Assembly (NCBI GenBank): GCA_017541205.1
Contig: JAFXZO010000110.1
Coordinates: forward strand, 1 to 50,870
DNA from: Clostridia bacterium
GTDB taxonomy: Bacteria > Bacillota > Clostridia > Christensenellales > Aristaeellaceae
Reading direction: 5' to 3'
Length of the DNA: 50,870 bases
Part shown: positions 6,125 to 42,440 of the stretch, piece by piece
Layout of the letters: each line of letters starts with the position of its first letter
Position numbering within the stretch: the first letter of the stretch is position 1
The notes under the pieces: model-generated
Databases searched by the model: none
What the model was told of the DNA's origin: nothing
The model's input: only the letters and a program-made list of their open reading frames with translations
Translations under genes and position numbers: made by a program

Positions 6125-6140
6125 TGTTTCACGTGAAACA
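6125..6140. promoter_or_regulatory. parS: parS site 1 (ParB-binding centromere)
   Basis: The 16-base palindrome TGTTTCACGTGAAACA is an exact match to the bacterial parS consensus. It lies between recF and the divergent AI-2E permease gene. ParB/Spo0J loads here and recruits SMC to organise the origin region; parB itself is not in this window. Confidence 0.95.
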
Positions 6141-6171: not shown

Positions 6172-6187
6172 TGTTTCACGTGAAACA
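6172..6187. promoter_or_regulatory. parS: parS site 2
   Basis: This is a second exact TGTTTCACGTGAAACA palindrome, 47 bases from the first measured start to start. Two perfect sites this close and in a gene-free gap are very unlikely by chance. Confidence 0.95.
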
Positions 6188-21475: not shown

Positions 21476-21763
21476 AATTTCATAGCAAAGGCAATGACGA
21501 AGACGGCGGGGAAAACGCGGCTTTCAGAGAGCCGGGGCAGCTGAAAACCGGCAGCAGGCGCTTCCCAATCGCCCATCCCTTCCGAGCCGAAGCGGTGAAC
21601 CCCCGCCGGGCAGTAATCGTCTTCCGTGAGGCCGCGTCAGGGCACGGGGTTTGGAACACGAACCCAACGAGCGGCGCGATATACGCGCAATTTGAGTGGT
21701 ACCGCGAGCTGAACGCATCATCAGCCCGTCTCAAAGCAAAAACGACTTTGGGACGGGTTTTTC
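21476..21763 (+). promoter_or_regulatory. T-box leader upstream of the XRE-cupin-ligase gene
   Basis: The T-box core TGAGTGGTACCGCG lies at 21693-21706. The terminator that competes with the antiterminator is CCCGTCTCAAAG/CTTTGGGACGGG (21725-21757), followed by TTTTTC. A Stem I base is visible as GAAGAC with GGCGGGG pairing to CCCCGCC and GTCTTC near 21601-21622. By position, the best specifier triplet is ATC (Ile) at 21616-21618, but GTA at 21613 is possible and the usual AGTA on the 5' side is missing. Uncharged cognate tRNA would therefore switch on the downstream gene. Confidence 0.85.
21725..21763 (+). terminator. T-box attenuator hairpin (ligase leader)
   Basis: A twelve-base-pair stem with one G-U pair is followed by a T-run. 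It is mutually exclusive with the T-box antiterminator. Confidence 0.85.
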
Positions 21764-21804
21764 TTTCGCGGCAGCCGTCCCCAAAAGAAACGGAGGAAAC
21801 GCCC

Positions 21805-24078
21805 ATGGATGTAACCCAGGCCCAGCACATCCCCGATCAGGTACGCGAGGTTGCGGCCCGTATCCGCGATCTGAGGGAAATCAGCGGCTATTCCGTTGCG
21901 GAAATGGCCCGGATGACCGATGTGACGGAGGAGATGTATCTGGCGTACGAAAACGCGCGGATGGATCTGCCCTTTACGTTCCTGCACAAGTGCGCCATGA
22001 CCTTCAAGGTGGACATGATCGACCTGATGGAAGGCCGCAGCGCCTCCCTGTCCTCCTACAACATCACGCGCAAGGGCGCGGCGGAAGTGACGGCGCAGGA
22101 AGACGGCATCGATATCCGCAACCTGGCCCCCATGTTCCGCAAAAAGATTTCGGAGCCGTATTTCGTCCGCTATACCTACGATCCCGCCCTGCAGGACAAG
22201 CCCATCCACACCACCACGCACTCCGGCCAGGAATTTGACTATATCCTCTCCGGCGCGCTCAAGATCCAGGTGGGCCACAACATCGAGCTTTTGCGCGAGG
22301 GCGATTCCATTTATTATGATTCGTCCACGCCGCACGGCATGATCGCCGCCGAGGGCGGGGACTGCGTGTTCCTGGCCGTGGTGCTGCCCGGCGAAGAGGC
22401 CGAGGAGCGCCAGGTGATGCAGACCATCAAGGCCAACCGCCAGTCCGCCCAGGAGCATTTCATTTACGAAAAATTCGCCAGGCCCGTGGAGGACGAAACC
22501 GGCGCTTTGCAGTCCATTTCCTTCCAGAACCTGGATACCTTCAATTTCGCCTTCGACGTGGTGGACGCCCTGGCCGATACCAAGCCCGAAGCCCTGGCCA
22601 TGCTGCACCTGGACGAAAACAGGCGGGAGCGCCGCTTCACCTTCCTGGACATGAAAAAGCAGTCCAACCGCGCGGCGAATTATTTCCGCTCCCTGGGCAT
22701 CAAGAAGGGCGACAAGGTGCTGGTGGTGCTGCGCCGGCAATACCATTTCTGGCTTTCGATGATGGCGCTTTGCAAGATCGGGGCCATCGCCATCCCGGCG
22801 ACCGACCAGCTCCTGGCCCACGATTACGAATACCGCTTCAACAAGGCGGAGGTCACCGCCATCCTGTGCACGGCGCACGGCAAGGCCGCCGAGCACGTGG
22901 AGGAGGCCCTGCCCGTGAGCCCCACGGTGCGGCTAAAGATCCTGTGCGGGGCCGCCCGCGAGGGCTGGCACGATTTTGACGCCGAGTACGCGCGTTTCTC
23001 CTCCCGTTTCCCGCGGGAAAAGGACGCGGCCTGCGGCAAGGATCCCATGGTCATGTTCTTCACCTCCGGCACCACCGGCTATCCCAAGCTGGTGGCCCAC
23101 GCCCACACCTATCCCATGGGCCACTTCATCACCGCCAAATACTGGCACTGCGTGGAGCCGGGCCGCCTGCACCTGACCATTTCCGATACCGGCTGGGGCA
23201 AGGCGCTGTGGGGCAAGCTGTACGGCCAATGGCTGTGCGAGGCGGCGGTATTCGCCTACGATTTCGACCGCTTCCATGCCGAAGACATCCTGCCCCTGTT
23301 CAAGCAGTACCAAATCGCCACCTTCTGCGCGCCGCCCACCATGCTGCGCATGCTCATCAAGGAGGACCTGGGCAAGTACGATCTTTCCTCCATCCATCAT
23401 GCCACCGTGGCCGGCGAAGCGCTCAACCCGGAGGTGTTCTATCAGTTTCAGAAGGCCACGGGCCTGTCCCTCATGGAGGGCTTCGGCCAGACCGAAACCA
23501 CCCTGTCCATCGGCAACCTCGTGGGCATGACGCCGAAGGTCGGCTCCATGGGCAAGCCCAGCCCGCTCTTTGACGTGGACCTGGTCGACCCGAACGGCAA
23601 CCCCGTCCCCGTCGGCGAAACGGGCGAGATCGTCATCCGCCTGGGCGAAGGCAAGCCCGCCTGCGGATTGTACCTGGGCTACGTCGGCATCGAGGACGAC
23701 CATCCCGACGGCCTTTACCACACCGGCGACACCGCCTGGCGCGATGAGGACGGCTTCTTCTGGTATGTGGGCCGCGTGGACGACCTCATCAAATCCTCCG
23801 GCTACCGCATCGGCCCGTTCGAGATCGAGTCCGTCATCATGGAGCTGCCCTTCGTGCTGGAGTGCGGCGTTTCCGCGGCGCCCGATCCCGTGCGCGGCCA
23901 GGTCGTCAAGGCCAGCATCGTGCTCGTCAAGGGCAAGGAACCCACCGAAGAACTCAAAAAAGAAATCCAGAACTACGTCAAGCAGCGCACCGCGCCCTAT
24001 AAATACCCCCGCATCGTGGTCTTCCGCGACGAGCTGCCCAAGACCATCAGCGGCAAGATCCAGAGGAATCTGCTGTAA
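21805..24078 (+). CDS. XRE HTH-cupin-AMP-forming acyl-CoA ligase fusion
   Basis: This 757-residue protein has three parts. Residues about 8-70 are an XRE-type HTH (IRDLREISGYSVAEMARMTD). Residues about 125-200 are a cupin (TTHSGQEFDYILSGALKIQVG, DSSTPHGM). Residues about 260-757 are an ANL-superfamily ligase. The ligase keeps the P-loop TSGTTGYPK (about 420-428), GFGQTET, YHTGDTAWRDEDGFFWYVGR and the C-terminal catalytic Lys in ISGKIQR. It should adenylate a carboxylic acid and form its CoA thioester. The HTH-cupin pair is the common layout of small-ligand regulators, so the polypeptide may both sense and activate the acid. CGGAGG precedes the ATG. A T-box leader implies control by amino-acid starvation, so a keto- or branched acid derived from an amino acid is a plausible substrate; this is inference. 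Confidence 0.9.
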   Translation: MDVTQAQHIPDQVREVAARIRDLREISGYSVAEMARMTDVTEEMYLAYENARMDLPFTFLHKCAMTFKVDMIDLMEGRSASLSSYNITRKGAAEVTAQEDGIDIRNLAPMFRKKISEPYFVRYTYDPALQDKPIHTTTHSGQEFDYILSGALKIQVGHNIELLREGDSIYYDSSTPHGMIAAEGGDCVFLAVVLPGEEAEERQVMQTIKANRQSAQEHFIYEKFARPVEDETGALQSISFQNLDTFNFAFDVVDALADTKPEALAMLHLDENRRERRFTFLDMKKQSNRAANYFRSLGIKKGDKVLVVLRRQYHFWLSMMALCKIGAIAIPATDQLLAHDYEYRFNKAEVTAILCTAHGKAAEHVEEALPVSPTVRLKILCGAAREGWHDFDAEYARFSSRFPREKDAACGKDPMVMFFTSGTTGYPKLVAHAHTYPMGHFITAKYWHCVEPGRLHLTISDTGWGKALWGKLYGQWLCEAAVFAYDFDRFHAEDILPLFKQYQIATFCAPPTMLRMLIKEDLGKYDLSSIHHATVAGEALNPEVFYQFQKATGLSLMEGFGQTETTLSIGNLVGMTPKVGSMGKPSPLFDVDLVDPNGNPVPVGETGEIVIRLGEGKPACGLYLGYVGIEDDHPDGLYHTGDTAWRDEDGFFWYVGRVDDLIKSSGYRIGPFEIESVIMELPFVLECGVSAAPDPVRGQVVKASIVLVKGKEPTEELKKEIQNYVKQRTAPYKYPRIVVFRDELPKTISGKIQRNLL

Positions 24079-26558: not shown

Positions 26559-27623
26559 TTATGAATAGTACTCTTTATACCATGCCGCGAACGCGCGCAG
26601 GCCTTCCCGGATGCCGATCGTGGGGCGGAAGCCGTAATCTTCTTCCAGGGCGCGGCTGTCGGCGTAGGTAACGGGCACGTCGCCCGGCTGCATGCCGACC
26701 AGCTTCCGGTGCTTTTCAAAATCGTAATCCGGGGGCAGCACCTTCGCGCGGACCAATTCCTCCTGCAGGGTGGAAATATAGTCGAGCAGGTTTTCCGGGG
26801 TGCCGCCGCCGATGTTGTAGACGGCGTAGGGCGGCAGGGGCAGGCCGTCCTCGCCCGTTTTCTTTTCCGGCGCGCCCTGCATCACGCGCAGCACGCCCTC
26901 CACGATGTCGTCCACATAGGTGAAATCGCGCTTGCAGTTGCCGTAATTGAAGATGGAAATGGTTTCGCCCTTCACCAGCTTCTGCGTGGCGCTGAAATAG
27001 AACATATCCGGCCGCCCGGCGGGGCCGTATACGGTGAAGAACCTCAGCCCCGTGCACGGGATATCGTACAGCTTGGCATAGCTGTGGGCCAGCAGCTCAT
27101 TGCTCTTTTTGGTGGCTGCGTAAAGGCTCACCGGGTTATCCACCTTGTCGTCCGTTGAGAAGGGCACCTTTTTGTTGCCGCCGTACACGGAGGAGGACGA
27201 AGCGTAGACCAGGTGCTCCACGGGATGATGGCGGCAGGCCTCCAGGATGTTGTAAAAGCCGATCAGGTTGCTTTCGATGTACACGTCCGGATGGTCGATG
27301 GAATAGCGCACCCCCGCCTGCGCCGCCAGGTTCACCGCCACGGCGGGCTTGTATTCGTCGAACACGCGGTCGATCAGCGCCTGATCCGCGATGCTGCCCT
27401 TGATGAACACGTGCCCGACCCCGGACGTTTTCGCGGCGTCTTCGATCAGGGAGAGCCGGTATTCCTTGAGCTTGGGATCGTAATAATCGTTCATGTTATC
27501 CAGGCTGACCACCGTGCCGGAGGTCATTTCCTTAAGGAGCCGCAGCACCAGGTTCGCCCCGATGAACCCGGGCGAGCCGGTCACCAGGATCGTTTTTCCG
27601 TTCAGATCCACGCGCTGTTTCAT
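26559..27623 (-). CDS. UDP-glucuronate 4-epimerase-like NAD-dependent epimerase
   Basis: The 354-residue extended SDR enzyme begins with ILVTGSPGFIGANL (NAD-binding Gly motif, residues 12-25). It then has the catalytic Ser region YASSSSVYG and Y-x3-K in SLYAATKKS. The stretch LDNMNDYYDPKLKEYRL and the region AAQAGVRYSIDHPDVY match UDP-GlcA 4-epimerases (LpsL/Cap1J/GAE), which interconvert UDP-glucuronate and UDP-galacturonate. It is the last gene of a UDP-uronate operon and its ATG overlaps the stop of the nucleotidyltransferase gene by four bases. Another UDP-sugar epimerase specificity is possible but less likely. Confidence 0.87.
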   Translation of the reverse strand: MKQRVDLNGKTILVTGSPGFIGANLVLRLLKEMTSGTVVSLDNMNDYYDPKLKEYRLSLIEDAAKTSGVGHVFIKGSIADQALIDRVFDEYKPAVAVNLAAQAGVRYSIDHPDVYIESNLIGFYNILEACRHHPVEHLVYASSSSVYGGNKKVPFSTDDKVDNPVSLYAATKKSNELLAHSYAKLYDIPCTGLRFFTVYGPAGRPDMFYFSATQKLVKGETISIFNYGNCKRDFTYVDDIVEGVLRVMQGAPEKKTGEDGLPLPPYAVYNIGGGTPENLLDYISTLQEELVRAKVLPPDYDFEKHRKLVGMQPGDVPVTYADSRALEEDYGFRPTIGIREGLRAFAAWYKEYYS

Positions 27624-28357
27624 TTTTCGATCCCCCTGTACGATTCCTGAACCTTTTGGTAGCTTTCCAGGTTCCCGATGTCATAGCGGCTTCCGGGCAT
27701 TTCCATGCTATGCAGGACGGCGTGCCCGCACATCCAGGCGACCAGGCTGCCCGGCGCGTCGGTGCCGCAGCCGTCGGCGATGGCCGTTTTGATTTTTTTC
27801 GCGTCCTCGGCCCTGTAGAAATAGAAGGGCGGCGTGCACCAGTGGGACTTGGGCTGCGCGGGCTTTTCCTCCAGCGACAAAAGCACTTCGTTTTCGTCGA
27901 TTTCGGAAACGCCGCTCTTGGAAAGCCGCTTTTCGTCCGCCTCATAATAGCGCATCACGCAGGAGGTGCCCTTTTCCTGCGCGTAGCGGATGAAGCGCAC
28001 CAGCGAAAAATCAAGCACGTTGTCCCCGGCGATGATGAGCAGATCATCGTCCAATCGCTTTTGCTCGATGGCGAACTGGATATCGCACACCGCGCCGAGC
28101 CGCGTTTCGTTTGTGCTCGTCCCGTCGTCCACCACCGCGATGGGCAGCGTATGCTGATCCGCCCAGGCCCGGAAATGATGCGCGAATTTGTGGTTGGAGA
28201 TCACGATGTATTCGTCCACCAGGCCGGAGGTATGGATGTCCTCCACCAGCCAGTCCAGGATCGTCTTTTCGCCCACCTTGAGCAGGGGCTTGGGAAAATT
28301 CTCCGTCAGCGGATACAGCCGCGTGGCGTATCCGGCGGCGAGGATCAGGCATTTCAT
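27620..28357 (-). CDS. Sugar-1-phosphate nucleotidyltransferase
   Basis: This 245-residue GT-A-like nucleotidyltransferase has the signature LILAAGYATRLYPLT (G-x-G-T-R-type NTP loop; Gly-Tyr-Ala-Thr-Arg here), PKPLLKVG and the metal-binding Asp in IAGDNVLDF. These enzymes join NTP and a sugar 1-phosphate. Its position after a galacturonokinase-like gene and before a UDP-GlcA/GalA epimerase suggests it makes UDP-galacturonate or UDP-glucuronate from the 1-phosphate; the nucleotide and sugar are inferred from context. Compared with RmlA (about 290 residues) it is shorter and lacks the C-terminal allosteric domain. Confidence 0.82.
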   Translation of the reverse strand: MKCLILAAGYATRLYPLTENFPKPLLKVGEKTILDWLVEDIHTSGLVDEYIVISNHKFAHHFRAWADQHTLPIAVVDDGTSTNETRLGAVCDIQFAIEQKRLDDDLLIIAGDNVLDFSLVRFIRYAQEKGTSCVMRYYEADEKRLSKSGVSEIDENEVLLSLEEKPAQPKSHWCTPPFYFYRAEDAKKIKTAIADGCGTDAPGSLVAWMCGHAVLHSMEMPGSRYDIGNLESYQKVQESYRGIEK

Positions 28358-28384
28358 GGCGTTTCAGTCCTTTCATTGTTTCTT

Positions 28385-28500
28385 GCGCGAAGCGCATATC
28401 GAGGCGAAGCCATATCGAATCCGAAGGATATATCGACAATCATATCAATGTACGCTTGTGCGTTCGATATACCCTTCGGGTTCGATATGCGCTTCGCGCG
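28385..28500. repeat. Inverted array of small CGAAG-loop hairpins
   Basis: The left arm has three mini-palindromes, GCGCGAAGCGC, GGCGAAGCC and ATCCGAAGGAT, each separated by CATATCGA-type words. The right arm carries the same kind of units on the other strand (ACCCTTCGGGT, GCGCTTCGCGC) separated by TTCGATAT. The outer arms match as a perfect 18-base inverted repeat. It lies in the 223-base gap between the kinase and nucleotidyltransferase genes of one operon. It looks like a dispersed intergenic repeat; copies elsewhere cannot be checked here. Confidence 0.75.
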
Positions 28501-28580
28501 AGGAAAGTTTGTGCATGCTTTTTCTTCCTGGTTGAACATGCCGTTTCACCATCGACTGAAAAAATATGATTCCTGTATTT

Positions 28581-29756
28581 TTATTTCTGATTCGCGATCC
28601 CGTCCGCGCTCTCGCACAGATGGAAGCTGTACTTGCCCTTCATTTCGGGGAACGCGGTCAGGTATTCGCGTTCCACGCGCTCCCGGATGGCATCGGCCTT
28701 CTTCGGGTCGATCAAGCCCATGCAGCAGCCCTTGAACCCCGCGCCGCTGAACCGGCCGCCATAGATGCCGTCGGTTTCGCGCATGATCTCGTACAGCCGG
28801 ATCTGTTCGGGCGCGCCGCTTTCCCAATTATGGATGCTGCTCCAGCCGGATTCAAAGCTGAGCCTGCCGTAAGCCTCCAGATCGCCGCGCCGCCAGGCTT
28901 CCGCGCCCGCTTCCACGCGTTCAAATTCGGTGAACCAGTGCTCGCACCGTTTGGCCCAGGGCGCGGGCAGCCGATCCTTGAACTTTTGGTAGTTTTCCAT
29001 GCCCACGTCGCGGGCGTTCGCCTGGTTGAATTTGCCGTAATCCATGCCCGCGAACGCCTGCAGGGCGTACACCCCGGCGCGCAGCTCGTCCACGCGCATG
29101 TTGTATTTGCTCCCGGCCAGGGAATGCTCCAGGCCCGAAAAGAAAATGGCGATCTTGTAGGGCTTCATGGCCGGGCTGGTCGGGATCAGCTCATAATGGC
29201 TGTCCCTGCAATCGAGGTACAAGAGGTGGTCCTTTTTGCTGAGCACCTCGCAGCTCTGGTCCAGCGTGCCCACGTTCACGCCCACGTAATTCTTTTCCGC
29301 GTCATAGGCAACCTGGATCAATTCGAGCGGCGAAAGCCGGATGCCGTTCACCCGGCACAGCGCGTCCAGGAACGAGAGGATCACCGCGGCGGAGGAGGAC
29401 AGCCCGCCGATGGGCAGCGAGCCCTCGATGACCCCGCACAGGCCCACGGTGAGGGCGTGCTCCTTCGCCAGCGCCCAGGTGGCCCCGCGCAGATAATCCG
29501 CCCAGTCGCCGGTCTTTTCGCCGATCTCCCGGATGTGCCACTGCGCCCGCTTGGAAAATTGCAGGCTGGACATTTCGATGACGCCGTTGTGCTTCACGCT
29601 GTACGCGACGTGGATGCCCTTGTCGATCGCCAGGCCCGTGATCTTGCCCAGGTTATGGTCGCTGTGCGCGCCGATGGGGCAGATCCGGTACGGGCTGAAC
29701 GACAGCCCTTCCGCGTCCCGGCCGTAGATTTCATGGAATCTTTCTTCGCAACGCAT
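28581..29756 (-). CDS. Galacturonokinase/galactokinase-like GHMP sugar kinase
   Basis: This 391-residue GHMP kinase phosphorylates a hexose or hexuronic acid at C1. Motif 1 at residues 21-35 reads SPYRICPIGAHSDHN, in place of galactokinase PGRVNLIGEHTDYN, and from memory closely resembles plant galacturonokinase. Motif 2 is PIGGLSSSAAV (115-125) and motif 3 is FSGAGFKGCCMGL (about 335-347). The neighbours are a UDP-glucose dehydrogenase fusion, a nucleotidyltransferase and a UDP-uronate epimerase. A galacturonate (or glucuronate) salvage role fits better than the Leloir pathway; no galT or galE is nearby. AAGGAG precedes the ATG. Substrate needs a direct test. Confidence 0.83.
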   Translation of the reverse strand: MRCEERFHEIYGRDAEGLSFSPYRICPIGAHSDHNLGKITGLAIDKGIHVAYSVKHNGVIEMSSLQFSKRAQWHIREIGEKTGDWADYLRGATWALAKEHALTVGLCGVIEGSLPIGGLSSSAAVILSFLDALCRVNGIRLSPLELIQVAYDAEKNYVGVNVGTLDQSCEVLSKKDHLLYLDCRDSHYELIPTSPAMKPYKIAIFFSGLEHSLAGSKYNMRVDELRAGVYALQAFAGMDYGKFNQANARDVGMENYQKFKDRLPAPWAKRCEHWFTEFERVEAGAEAWRRGDLEAYGRLSFESGWSSIHNWESGAPEQIRLYEIMRETDGIYGGRFSGAGFKGCCMGLIDPKKADAIRERVEREYLTAFPEMKGKYSFHLCESADGIANQK

Positions 29757-29776: not shown

Positions 29777-31279
29777 TCAGTCCCTGCGGAACAGGTCGCG
29801 CGTGTATACCTTTTCCTCCACGTCGTCCAATGCCTTATCGTACCGGTTGGCGATGATGCAGCCGCACATTTTCTTGAACTTTTTCAGGTCGTTCACCACG
29901 CGGGAGCCAAAAAACGTGGAGCCGTTTTCGAGCGTCGGCTCATAGATCACCACGGTGGCGCCCTTGGCCTTGATGCGCTTCATCACGCCCTGGATGCTGC
30001 TCTGCCGGAAGTTGTCGCTGTTGGCCTTCATGGTCAGCCGGTACACGCCGACGACGGTTTCCTTCTGCCGTTTTTCCTGCTTGGAGGAATAGTCCGCGGA
30101 GGCGGTGTACATGCCCGCGATCTCCATCACGCGGTCGGCGATGAAATCCTTGCGGGTGCGGTTGCTTTCCACGATGGCGGTCATCATGTTCTGGGGCACG
30201 TCCAGATAATTGGCCAGCAGCTGCTTGGTATCCTTGGGCAGGCAGTAGCCGCCGTAGCCGAAGGAGGGGTTGTTGTAATAATCGCCCACGCGGGGATCAA
30301 GGCACACGCCCTTGATGATCGGCGCGGTCTTGAGGCCCTTGACCTCGGCGTAGGTGTCCAGCTCATTGAAATAGGAGACGCGAAGCGCCAGGTAGGTATT
30401 GACGAACAGCTTCGTTGCCTCGGCCTCGGTATAGCCCATGAACAGTTTGGGAATATCCTCCTTGATCGCCCCCCGCTCCAGCAGCGCGGCGAAAATTTCC
30501 GCCTGGGGCCGGGTCTTTTCATCGCAGCCGACAATGATGCGGCTGGGGTACAGGTTGTCGTACAGGGCCTTGGATTCGCGCAGGAATTCCGGCGAAAAGA
30601 GGATGTTGTCGGCGGAAAGCTTTTGGCGGATGTGCTCCGTATAGCCCACCGGGATGGTGGATTTGATGACGATCGCGGGCTTTTCCTTCCGGTCCGCCGT
30701 GCAGGATAGCACCAGATCGATCACCTTTTCCACCGCGGAGCAGTCGAAATAATTCAGCTTGGGATCATAGTTGGTCGGCGCGGCGATGATCACATAGTCC
30801 GCGTCCGCATAGGCGGAGGCGGCGTCCAGCGTGGCGCGAAGGTTCAATTCGCGCGTTCCGGCCTTTGCCTCGTCCAGGAATTTTTCGATATATTCATCCT
30901 GGATGGGGGATTCCATGCGGTTCAGCTTTTCCACTTTTTCCGGCACGATGTCCACGGCGGCGACCTGATTGTGCTGGGAGAGAAGCACGGCGAGGGAAAG
31001 GCCCACGTATCCCGTGCCCGCCACGGCGATCTTGTACGCCCCGAGCGCCCGGCCGGGCTTTTGCTCCCCCGATACGAACAGCTGCGCGGGATCAAACTCC
31101 AGCGCTTCCGACAGCGCCTGCAATTGATCCACCGACGGCATGTAGTCCCCGGCCTCCAGCCGGGACAGGATCGAGCGGTTGATCCCCGTCATTTCCGCAA
31201 GCTTTGCCTGCGAAAGCTTTTTCTTTTTTCGCGCTGCCGCCGCCGTTTCGGAAAGCAGCTTCAGAGACAATTTTTTCAT
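29777..31279 (-). CDS. XRE HTH fused to UDP-glucose 6-dehydrogenase
   Basis: In this 500-residue protein residues 11-67 are an XRE HTH ([20 protein letters not shown], then [14 protein letters not shown]). After a short linker, residues 82-500 form a complete UDP-glucose/GDP-mannose dehydrogenase. The NAD motif is GTGYVG (88-93), followed by STIPVGYTE and SPEFLRE. The catalytic Cys is in [10 protein letters not shown] near residue 345. It would oxidise UDP-glucose to UDP-glucuronate, feeding the epimerase in the same operon. The HTH could let the enzyme regulate its own operon according to substrate or cofactor. A perfect 17-base palindrome lies between its promoter and start codon. Confidence 0.93.
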
Positions 31280-31300
31280 TCTGATCGCACCCCGTTAAAC

Positions 31301-31317
31301 TGTTGCTGACAGCAACA
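31301..31317. promoter_or_regulatory. Perfect palindrome, candidate autoregulatory operator
   Basis: TGTTGCTGACAGCAACA is a 17-base perfect palindrome with a single central base. It sits 22 bases before the start codon of the XRE-dehydrogenase fusion and just downstream of its promoter, where a bound repressor would block elongation or initiation. Confidence 0.65.
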
Positions 31318-31339
31318 AATTTCATCATTTCTGATTCTT

Positions 31340-31368
31340 ATTATACCAGATTCAGTCGTTTCTGTCAA
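31340..31368 (-). promoter_or_regulatory. Consensus SigA promoter of the UDP-uronate operon
   Basis: On the minus strand TTGACA (31363-31368) and TATAAT (31340-31345) are both perfect, with a 17-base spacer. An unregulated promoter of this quality would be very strong, in line with repression at the adjacent palindrome. Confidence 0.92.
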
Positions 31369-31486: not shown

Positions 31487-31515
31487 TTGACGGCTTGGAT
31501 TCATTTTGTTATAAT
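31487..31515 (+). promoter_or_regulatory. SigA-type promoter of the sugar ABC transporter operon
   Basis: A -35 TTGACG (31487-31492), a 17-base spacer and a perfect TATAAT (31510-31515) lie 52 bases before the binding-protein start. Confidence 0.88.
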
Positions 31516-31567: not shown

Positions 31568-32806
31568 ATGAAACGTTTGCTGGCTGTGCTGCTGTGCTGC
31601 GCGCTGCTCATCTCCTGCATGAGCGTCGCCGCGGCGGACGAAAAAAAGACCCTGACCGTGTGGATCCCCCAATACCAGTTTACCGGCGGCATTCCGGACC
31701 AGGAATTCTGGGACGGCGTGTTCGATCCCTTCGAGGAAGAGAACAACTGCGAAGTCAAGGTGGAGATCCTCCCCTGGAGCGATTACAACACCACCGTGTA
31801 CACCGGCCTGCTCAACAATGACGGCCCGGACGTCGTGTACGTGACGGACAACTATGACCTGGTTACCAACGGCCTGCTCCTTGGCCTGGACGGCTACCTG
31901 ACCGACGCGGAAAAGGATAACTACCTGCTGTGGAGCACCGGCCCCGTGGACGCGAACGGCGAGCATGTGATCGTTCCCATGGACGACGGCGTGGCCATGG
32001 GCTTCTACAACAAGGACATTCTTGCCGAAGCGGGCATCGACACCTTCCCCGAGGAGTGGGACGCCTTCATCGAAGCCTGCAAGACCATCCCGGAAAAGAC
32101 CGGCAAGCAGGGCTTCCTGCAGAACTGGGGCGCCACCACCGGCACCAGCGCCTTGATGCTGGCCTTCTGGCCCTACTACTTCCAGGCGGGCGGCGTGATG
32201 CTGGACGAAAACGGGCAGATCGCCATCAACAACGAAGCGGGCCTCAAGACCCTGGAATTCTTAAAGAAGTTCTACGACGAGGGCATCTTTGACGAGACCA
32301 TCGTTTCCGAATCCGAATCCATCGAAAAGTTCGCCGCTGGCGAGCTGGCCTTCGTGGTGGCTGACCTGAACAAGGGCAAGACCTTCACCAACAACGGCGT
32401 CAACTGGGAATACTTCTTCTCCCTGAAGGGCCCCGCCGGCTATGGCGCCCGCACCGCCACCGACTCCTTCGCCGTCGCCGCCAAGGCCAAGGAACGCGGC
32501 AATGACGAATTGGCCGTGAAAGCCCTCGTGCTCATCACCTCCGGCGCCGTCATGGACCGCTTCCACAGCGAAGTGTTCTATCTGCCCCCCTTCACCAAGG
32601 ACTCCTCCTACACCCAGAACGAAGCCTATACCACCCTGACCGGCGCGCATACCGCGGATATTTACGTGGTTAGCGAATTCGAGGGCAAGGCTTCCTTTGA
32701 AAAGGAGCTGCAGGCCAATATCCAGATGATGTTCATGGGCGATCTGACGCCCCAGGAAGTGCTGGACAACACCATGGCCTACTATACGGACCAGATCAAG
32801 CAATAA
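31568..32806 (+). CDS. Sugar ABC transporter substrate-binding lipoprotein
   Basis: This 412-residue extracellular solute-binding protein (family 1) has a signal peptide with basic KR, a hydrophobic core and LISC at residues 14-17, a lipobox that would anchor it in the membrane. A following AAA-DE could also be a type I cleavage site. The mature part has the two-lobed fold pieces expected for carbohydrate binders (GPDVVYVTDNYDLV, PEEWDAFIEACKTI). It heads an operon with two permease genes, anmK and an M29 aminopeptidase. The anmK link suggests an amino-sugar or anhydromuramic ligand, by inference. Confidence 0.9.
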   Translation: MKRLLAVLLCCALLISCMSVAAADEKKTLTVWIPQYQFTGGIPDQEFWDGVFDPFEEENNCEVKVEILPWSDYNTTVYTGLLNNDGPDVVYVTDNYDLVTNGLLLGLDGYLTDAEKDNYLLWSTGPVDANGEHVIVPMDDGVAMGFYNKDILAEAGIDTFPEEWDAFIEACKTIPEKTGKQGFLQNWGATTGTSALMLAFWPYYFQAGGVMLDENGQIAINNEAGLKTLEFLKKFYDEGIFDETIVSESESIEKFAAGELAFVVADLNKGKTFTNNGVNWEYFFSLKGPAGYGARTATDSFAVAAKAKERGNDELAVKALVLITSGAVMDRFHSEVFYLPPFTKDSSYTQNEAYTTLTGAHTADIYVVSEFEGKASFEKELQANIQMMFMGDLTPQEVLDNTMAYYTDQIKQ

Positions 32807-41984: not shown

Positions 41985-42440
41985 TGTGGATAACCGCCCG
42001 GTTTTTGTGGAAAACCCGGTATAACTTTTTTCCCCGCCGCATAGAATGCTTTTGCCGCCTGGTTTTTCTTTTCCACAGGCTGTGGAAAGCGGGTTTCCGG
42101 GAAATTGTGGATAACCCAAAAACGCGGAAAATGAAGCGTTACAAGGGGATTTCATTTTGATAACAAGCTGTTCATACTTGATTTTTTGGGGAAATTATGC
42201 GACAATATCTTCAGGATTGATTTTTCCTTCTTTTTGGGCTGTCTTCAGCCTGGGAAGGAAAAACGCCGGGAAGAGGAAAAACGAACCCTGCAAAAAAGAT
42301 TTTTCCACAGGTTATCCCGGCTTATCCCAAAAACAATCCACAGCGGAAACTCAGGTATTTCGGGCCCTGCGCCCACTTATCCACGTTTCCACAGCCCCTA
42401 CTACTACTACTGAATATATATTACTACTACAACTGTAAGA
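41985..42440 (+). other. oriC: Chromosomal replication origin (oriC) with DnaA-trios
   Basis: DnaA boxes fall in two groups. The upstream group holds TTATCCACA at 41985-41993 and 42106-42114 (both minus), TTTTCCACA at 42006-42014 (minus) and 42069-42077 (plus), and CTTTCCACA at 42081-42089 (minus). The downstream group, all plus, holds TTTTCCACA at 42301, CAATCCACA at 42334, TTATCCACG at 42377 and GTTTCCACA at 42385. The last box is followed by GCCCC and two DnaA-trio runs, TACTACTACTACTG (42399-42412) and TACTACTAC (42422-42430), around AATATATATT. This is the B. subtilis unwinding architecture. dnaN starts 70 bases further on; dnaA is absent. Confidence 0.92.
42178..42206 (+). promoter_or_regulatory. 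Candidate dnaN promoter inside oriC
   Basis: TTGATT (42178-42183), a 17-base spacer and GACAAT (42201-42206), preceded by TGC for an extended -10. The transcript would cross the downstream DnaA boxes and the unwinding region. The -10 is only a fair match. Confidence 0.4.

Follow-up and report, generated by a model that had tools for sequence, protein, structure and literature searches.

Does a UDP-glucose 6-dehydrogenase (UGDH) that carries a DNA-binding domain at its own N-terminus govern the expression of its own gene? The question is raised by a 500-residue protein, recognized from its open reading frame and profile matches at 29777..31279 (minus strand) of a 50,870-bp stretch of clostridial DNA (the window), in which an XRE-type helix-turn-helix (HTH) is fused to the dehydrogenase. 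From comparison of the sequences, we consider it highly likely that this protein is both an active enzyme and an autogenous repressor of its own gene, a claim that leaves control by ligands aside.

Architecture of the fusion protein and its operon

The N-terminal XRE HTH region occupies residues 1–75 (31055..31279, minus strand). It matches the Pfam profile HTH_3 over residues 15–65 (E 5.6e-14, 52.4 bits against a cut-off of 23), its recognition helix contains the residues N34, R35, S36, and I37, and its best solved relative is the P22 C2 repressor (2r1j). Profile and structure-sequence matches place complete UGDH domains at residues 83–500 (29780..31033, minus strand), with the three UDPG_MGDP_dh domains of Pfam at 83–257, 285–374, and 411–489, so that the preliminary description of an intact HTH on a complete dehydrogenase is borne out. 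The fusion scores above the cut-off of TIGR03026 and reaches 529.8 bits with NF011631, under the cut-off of 757. The best solved relatives of the enzyme part are 3PHL (7e-144) and 1DLI/1DLJ (E 1.1e-136 for 1DLI), which we take to be the UGDHs of Klebsiella and Streptococcus pyogenes, respectively. These are homologous to the fusion across its whole enzyme part but, unlike it, are without an HTH domain.

Catalytic residues were mapped onto the 1DLI/1DLJ enzyme, in which T118, E141, E145, K204, N208, C260, K263, and D264 presumably have the catalytic roles. The corresponding residues of the window fusion (T208, E231, E235, K290, N294, C346, K349, and D350) are intact, and all eight are identical in 90/90 aligned fusions. 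With the catalytic Cys, Lys, Asp, and Asn and all three UGDH domains present, the protein is a UDP-glucose 6-dehydrogenase of the PRK15057/TIGR03026 type, and we infer that it is catalytically competent. Three further cysteines, C180, C472, and C474, are found in 89, 87, and 87 of the 90 fusions, respectively, and in 2, 5, and 3 of 28 HTH-less orthologues. The idea that these fusion-specific cysteines are needed for the operator described below was rejected, as L115, L153, and L156 have operator sites but none of the three.

Ten loci (L037, L042, L048, L050, L051, L052, L061, L080, L106, and L108) carry an HTH-less UGDH directly after the fusion. The eight of these tandem enzymes that were aligned have a threonine in place of D110, an aspartate that we take to be an NAD-binding residue, and their cofactor preference may therefore differ. 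In the L093 and L110 fusions, a cysteine replaces the aspartate at the same position.

The gene is preceded by a sigma-70-type promoter (31340..31368, minus strand) that matches TTGACA-17-TATAAT at 12/12 positions. At a threshold of ≥9/12, three promoter-like sites occur within 3.5 kb, against 1.1 in shuffles. Transcription is estimated from the −10 box to start near 31333. Between promoter and start codon, at 31301..31317, lies the palindrome TGTTGCTGTCAGCAACA, designated operator O1 on the strength of its symmetry and its conservation among relatives. Its arms, TGTTGCTG-T-CAGCAACA, are perfect over 8+1+8 positions, and its center would fall at about +24. The perfect consensus promoter and the perfect 17-base palindrome of the preliminary description are thus both confirmed.

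The window contains six perfect palindromes (arms ≥8, loop 0–1) in its 50,870 bp, two of them parS-like, and a matrix scan finds a single operator in it, O1. The sequence TGTTTCACGTGAAACA, which we take to be the parS consensus bound by ParB/Noc, has two perfect copies, at 6125–6140 and 6172–6187, and the window may accordingly lie near a replication origin. A perfect 19-bp palindrome, TTTCCACAGGCTGTGGAAA, is found at 42070–42088.

Profile matches identify the genes that follow the fusion on the minus strand. A galactokinase-like GHMP sugar kinase (28581..29756) begins 20 bp downstream and is followed, after a 223-bp gap, by a sugar-1-phosphate nucleotidyltransferase (27620..28357) and an NAD-dependent epimerase (26559..27623). 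The last is probably a UDP-glucuronate 4-epimerase, its substrate being judged from context. No promoter-like site was found in the 223-bp gap, and a long imperfect inverted repeat can be seen there by eye at about 28370–28510. Among 61 fusion loci with at least 3 kb of downstream sequence, relatives of the epimerase are present in 44, of the nucleotidyltransferase in 22, and of the kinase in 21, counted anywhere in the locus and with weak matches included. Gene-neighbor chains were built by mechanical ORF picking in which shadow ORFs are present, and only named clusters were used. The recurrence of these three partners indicates that a UDP-uronate operon is common among fusion loci; the operon may have a role in surface polysaccharide. 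The window encodes a second regulator-enzyme protein, an HTH_19-cupin-AMP-binding acyl-CoA synthetase (21595–24078, plus strand), whose HTH_19 match scores under the Pfam cut-offs.

Distribution and origin of the fusion

Relatives were collected by a scan of genome contigs, from which the best 80 of 571 loci were taken. Of these 80, 79 are titled as Clostridia, as other Bacillota, or as subordinate taxa, the remaining one being a Hydrogenedentes, and in many titles the source is the rumen or the gut. The comparison set, enlarged by loci from further genome surveys, consisted of 90 fusions and 28 HTH-less orthologues, the latter drawn mostly from the best-scoring matches because loci were ordered best first. 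Five fragmentary loci (L012, L018, L020, L021, and L131) were left out before operators were counted, as were the duplicates L005, L006, L007, L010, and L074; near-identical loci were kept and counted separately. L016, L127, and L132 were all classed as HTH-less by rule, and L016 and L127 were also shown to be so.

The enzyme was found in at least 84 of 391 genomes of the class and the fusion, defined there as a match beginning at residue 1–3, in at least five of these. In the family, at least 52 of 120 genomes have the enzyme and at least 18 the fusion; in the phylum, under a stricter cut-off, the enzyme was found in at least 11 of 398 genomes and the fusion in at least one, that of the window itself. 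These counts are lower bounds because scoring was confined to the top few candidates of each genome.

Most fusions group together. A first tree placed 77/80 fusions in one well-supported clade; it lacks ten fusions missed by a motif cut (L008, L009, L013, L042, L052, L077, L093, L097, L100, and L110) as well as L129, which was too short. A second tree, built from 37/90 of the older fusions, 5/7 new ones (the cut did not capture L153 and L156), and 40 HTH-less rows, placed 39/42 in one such clade. L014, L115, and L116 fall outside the main fusion clade, and an HTH-less clade lies beside it. A single origin was not favored, since the tree requires three changes and recovers one origin in 0% of 200 bootstrap trees; yet the AU test does not reject a tree constrained to unite the fusions (p-AU 0.109), which would permit it. 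One to three origins of the fusion are therefore possible.

Conservation of the operator and its probable recognition by the fused HTH

Regions of 300 bp upstream were scanned with a symmetric matrix in a leave-one-out design, with the line set at the 99% level of shuffles. The preliminary description had looked to homologous fusions for a conserved palindrome, and one is present there: TGTYRYTNNNARYRACA lies upstream of 82/90 fusions and of 0/28 HTH-less orthologues. In controls, a site was found in 1/118 coding stretches and 5/90 reversed upstream regions. With matrix and threshold fixed, a held-out set gave sites before 7/7 new distinct fusions and 0/12 new HTH-less orthologues. A strong site (score ≥17) occurs 88 times at up to 320 bp from a fusion start and once in the other 1,030,229 bp of the loci and the window; of these two figures only the latter is independent, because the matrix was trained on sites before fusions.

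Eight fusions fall under the line (L004, L035, L044, L051, L058, L084, L103, and L116). L084 has merely 117 bp of upstream sequence, and in our reading the sites of L044 and L051 are of a TGTTAT type, to which the common matrix gives low scores. Three close relatives of the window, L004, L034, and L035, are without a good O1. L034 and L035 have kept R17 and R35 despite this. L004, a close sister, is the sole fusion of the 90 with an altered R35 (R35P); it also carries R17K and has no operator upstream, and is thus an apparent case of natural loss of DNA-binding function, judging from its sequence.

The consensus is permissive enough for chance occurrences, and exact matches across whole genomes have to be read against a control. 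In the window's own genome (3.0 Mb, 84.86% complete), the one exact match to TGTYRYTNNNARYRACA is O1 itself. The 25 fusion genomes searched contain 21 exact matches, of which 11, from nine genomes, precede the fusion and 10 lie elsewhere; the reversed pattern gives 11 matches. Exact matches also turn up in 11 genomes without the fusion, 19 compared with 10 for the reversed pattern, and not one of the 19 shares a contig with the listed UGDH of its genome. A wider regulon was considered and set aside: the loci and the window's own genome give no sign of it, nor do the 25 fusion genomes, where matches elsewhere do not exceed the reversed-pattern control. Comparison thus shows the predicted operator to be nearly restricted to the fusion's own promoter. 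We also considered whether the palindrome serves the divergent ABC-transporter gene that starts at 31568. This reading was rejected because the operator keeps company with the fusion in relatives and because that gene has a promoter-like site of its own (31487–31515), which the palindrome does not overlap.

If the fused HTH reads this operator, its recognition helix should bear the marks. Covariation was calculated for the 82 fusions with sites, and the variable enzyme columns served as background for shared ancestry. Among 259 variable protein columns, residues 34 and 36 are the two that covary most strongly with operator base 4, and residues 36 and 37 the two that covary most strongly with base 5. 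This ranking survives identity weighting at 85% and 90% and restriction to one site per locus, but for base 4 it is lost at 80% or 75%, where the effective n falls to 6 or 2. For half-site bases 6 and 8 no recognition-helix signal was found, the residues listed ranking 40th or lower of the 259. In the alignment with the P22 C2 repressor (2r1j), S36 falls at chain position 33, presumably a base-contacting position.

The pairing of residues 34 and 36 with bases 4–5 reads as a rough code. Namely, the commonest half-site has TG in 32/41 loci with N34 S36, CG in 8/9 with N34 G36, CA in 9/10 with H34 G36, and TA in 8/10 with N34 A36; other residue pairs account for 12 loci. In several pairs of close sisters, a change at these residues is accompanied by a change in the operator. 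At 92% identity, L037 (H34 G36) has CA in 4/6 half-sites and L067 (N34 G36) has CG in 4/6, and at 86% identity, L093 (N34 S36) has TG and L110 (S34 S36) has CG. There are exceptions: L045/L047 and L090/L098 differ at residues 34/36 and have a half-site in common, and L013, L056, L059, and L112 deviate from the code. Contacts between a regulator and its operator can be predicted from correlated residues and bases, an established approach, as described for GntR regulators (PMC4494728). Taken together, the conservation of the operator, its absence before HTH-less orthologues, its near-absence elsewhere, and its covariation with the recognition helix argue that the fused HTH very probably reads its own promoter.

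The relatives of the window often have more than one site. With the full matrix at the 99% line, two sites are found in 32 of the 90 loci and three in 19, so that 51/90 have two or three operators; a single site is found in 32 and no site in 7. With the line 2 bits lower, which 29/900 shuffles reach, the numbers are 33, 23, 28, and 6. A site lies within 75 bp of the start in 64/90 loci, further up in 63/90, and in both places in 44/90. A promoter-like pattern (≥9/12) was found in 76/90 loci. Relative to it, the center of O1 falls at +17 to +44 in 54/58 loci that have both a near site and a scored promoter, and O2 lies entirely upstream of the −35 box in 49/52. In 42 loci, 81–163 bp separate the near and far operators, and 16 loci have a third one 30–36 bp further up. 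Phasing of O1 and O2 is weak (Rayleigh p ~0.02 at 10.5 bp, n=42, uncorrected for kinship). This layout would be that of two-operator loop repressors.

Proposed autogenous control and its precedents

How might such a protein control its own production, as it probably does by the evidence of its operator? Bacterial UGDHs of known structure are dimers, and a dimer of the fusion would present two HTHs, which could grip both halves of the 17-bp palindrome. Bound at about +24, the fusion would block transcription and so repress its own gene, probably together with the genes that follow. Release would follow when the enzyme is occupied by its substrate, its product, or NAD(H). The preliminary description had the enzyme repress its own UDP-uronate operon. 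Of this, the assignment of O1 as the operator of the fused HTH is well supported, the site being conserved, absent before HTH-less orthologues, and covarying with the protein; the downstream genes fit UDP-uronate supply; and the position of O1 just past the start point fits repression, which is likely, rather than activation. In relatives, a second or third operator above the −35 box may let bound dimers interact across the promoter, as in the loops of the gal and lac repressors, which are formed between two operators. The likeness to gal and lac lies in operators that flank the promoter, as in the 42 loci above; the difference is that the window carries O1 alone and has no flanking pair, so that looping cannot be claimed for the window.

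The main alternative is an autogenous repressor without ligand control, which would hold its own level steady whatever its substrates do. It has a good chance of being correct, though one short of even, and it shares its DNA-binding part with the best explanation, the signal alone being in dispute. All the evidence presented here concerns DNA binding and its target, which suits this simpler repressor; however, an intact active site in a protein that heads genes of the same pathway indirectly suggests sensing, and the precedent BirA is ligand-gated (PMC4016012). An activator or dual regulator, with O2/O3 activating from upstream and O1 repressing at high protein level, is unlikely. Such a role would suit the center of O2, which lies at −52 to −135 in 49/52 scored loci, a range open to activators, and 19/90 loci have a site more than 75 bp from the start and none closer. 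However, the near site that 64/90 loci possess is the window's sole one, and the perfect consensus promoter there would make an activator superfluous.

It is more doubtful still that the UGDH part has become a non-catalyzing ligand sensor, an enzyme turned regulator. In the ten loci with a tandem HTH-less UGDH, the second enzyme is a possible catalytic replacement, but the eight catalytic residues are intact in every fusion, and no other UGDH was found in the window's own genome (84.86% complete). BzdR, which such a sensor would resemble, likewise joins an N-terminal DNA-binding domain to an enzyme (shikimate kinase-like) domain (PMC3602430), but its enzyme part is inactive, in contrast to the intact active-site residues of the fusion. 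An mRNA hairpin acting in translation or attenuation control, with the HTH unrelated, was rejected as very improbable: O1 does lie in the 5′ UTR near the start codon and could pair, but the folding of the window's leader is no stronger than that of shuffled sequences (z −0.15), the O2/O3 copies sit upstream of the promoter, and neither the recognition-helix covariation nor the lack of sites before HTH-less orthologues agrees with it.

By analogy, the autogenous repressor is best read as working like PutA or BirA, yet as a separate family. PutA is an enzyme whose polypeptide also represses its own operon, with a ribbon-helix-helix domain and proline and redox as its signals. The fusion would resemble PutA and other trigger enzymes in uniting enzyme and own-operon repressor, with an XRE HTH instead. 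BirA forms a dimer only with ligand, whereas UGDH does so by itself, and BirA differs further in its enzyme and its class of HTH. Group II BirA is similar in having an N-terminal HTH on a working enzyme and inverted-repeat operators at pathway genes, and HTH-bearing and HTH-less forms of biotin protein ligase coexist among bacteria (PMC4016012); in the fusion family, too, both forms of one enzyme coexist. Among the open-licence papers listed for this fusion, no title or abstract deals with an HTH-UGDH fusion, and none names a UGDH that controls its own transcription. The one paper to name all three features sought, PMC3832669, does so for separate genes.

For the clostridial family as a whole, we tentatively suggest, as a possibility and at less than even likelihood, that these active UGDHs are ligand-gated looping repressors private to their own promoters, with a code that links residues 34/36 to bases 4/5 and possibly a redox tie through cysteines. 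If this is true, the ligands of the family would be UDP-sugar, NAD(H), or redox, and C180 and C472/C474, near-invariant in the main clade and mostly missing from HTH-less orthologues, could couple the switch to redox. Because the family includes diverged sisters that have or lack the HTH, or that differ in their recognition residues, direct tests are possible both of the recognition code and of how a trigger enzyme arose. The supply of UDP-glucuronate is a branch point on the way to uronic-acid polysaccharides. Among the best 80 of 571 loci, the fusion is present in many genomes whose titles name rumen or gut Clostridia.
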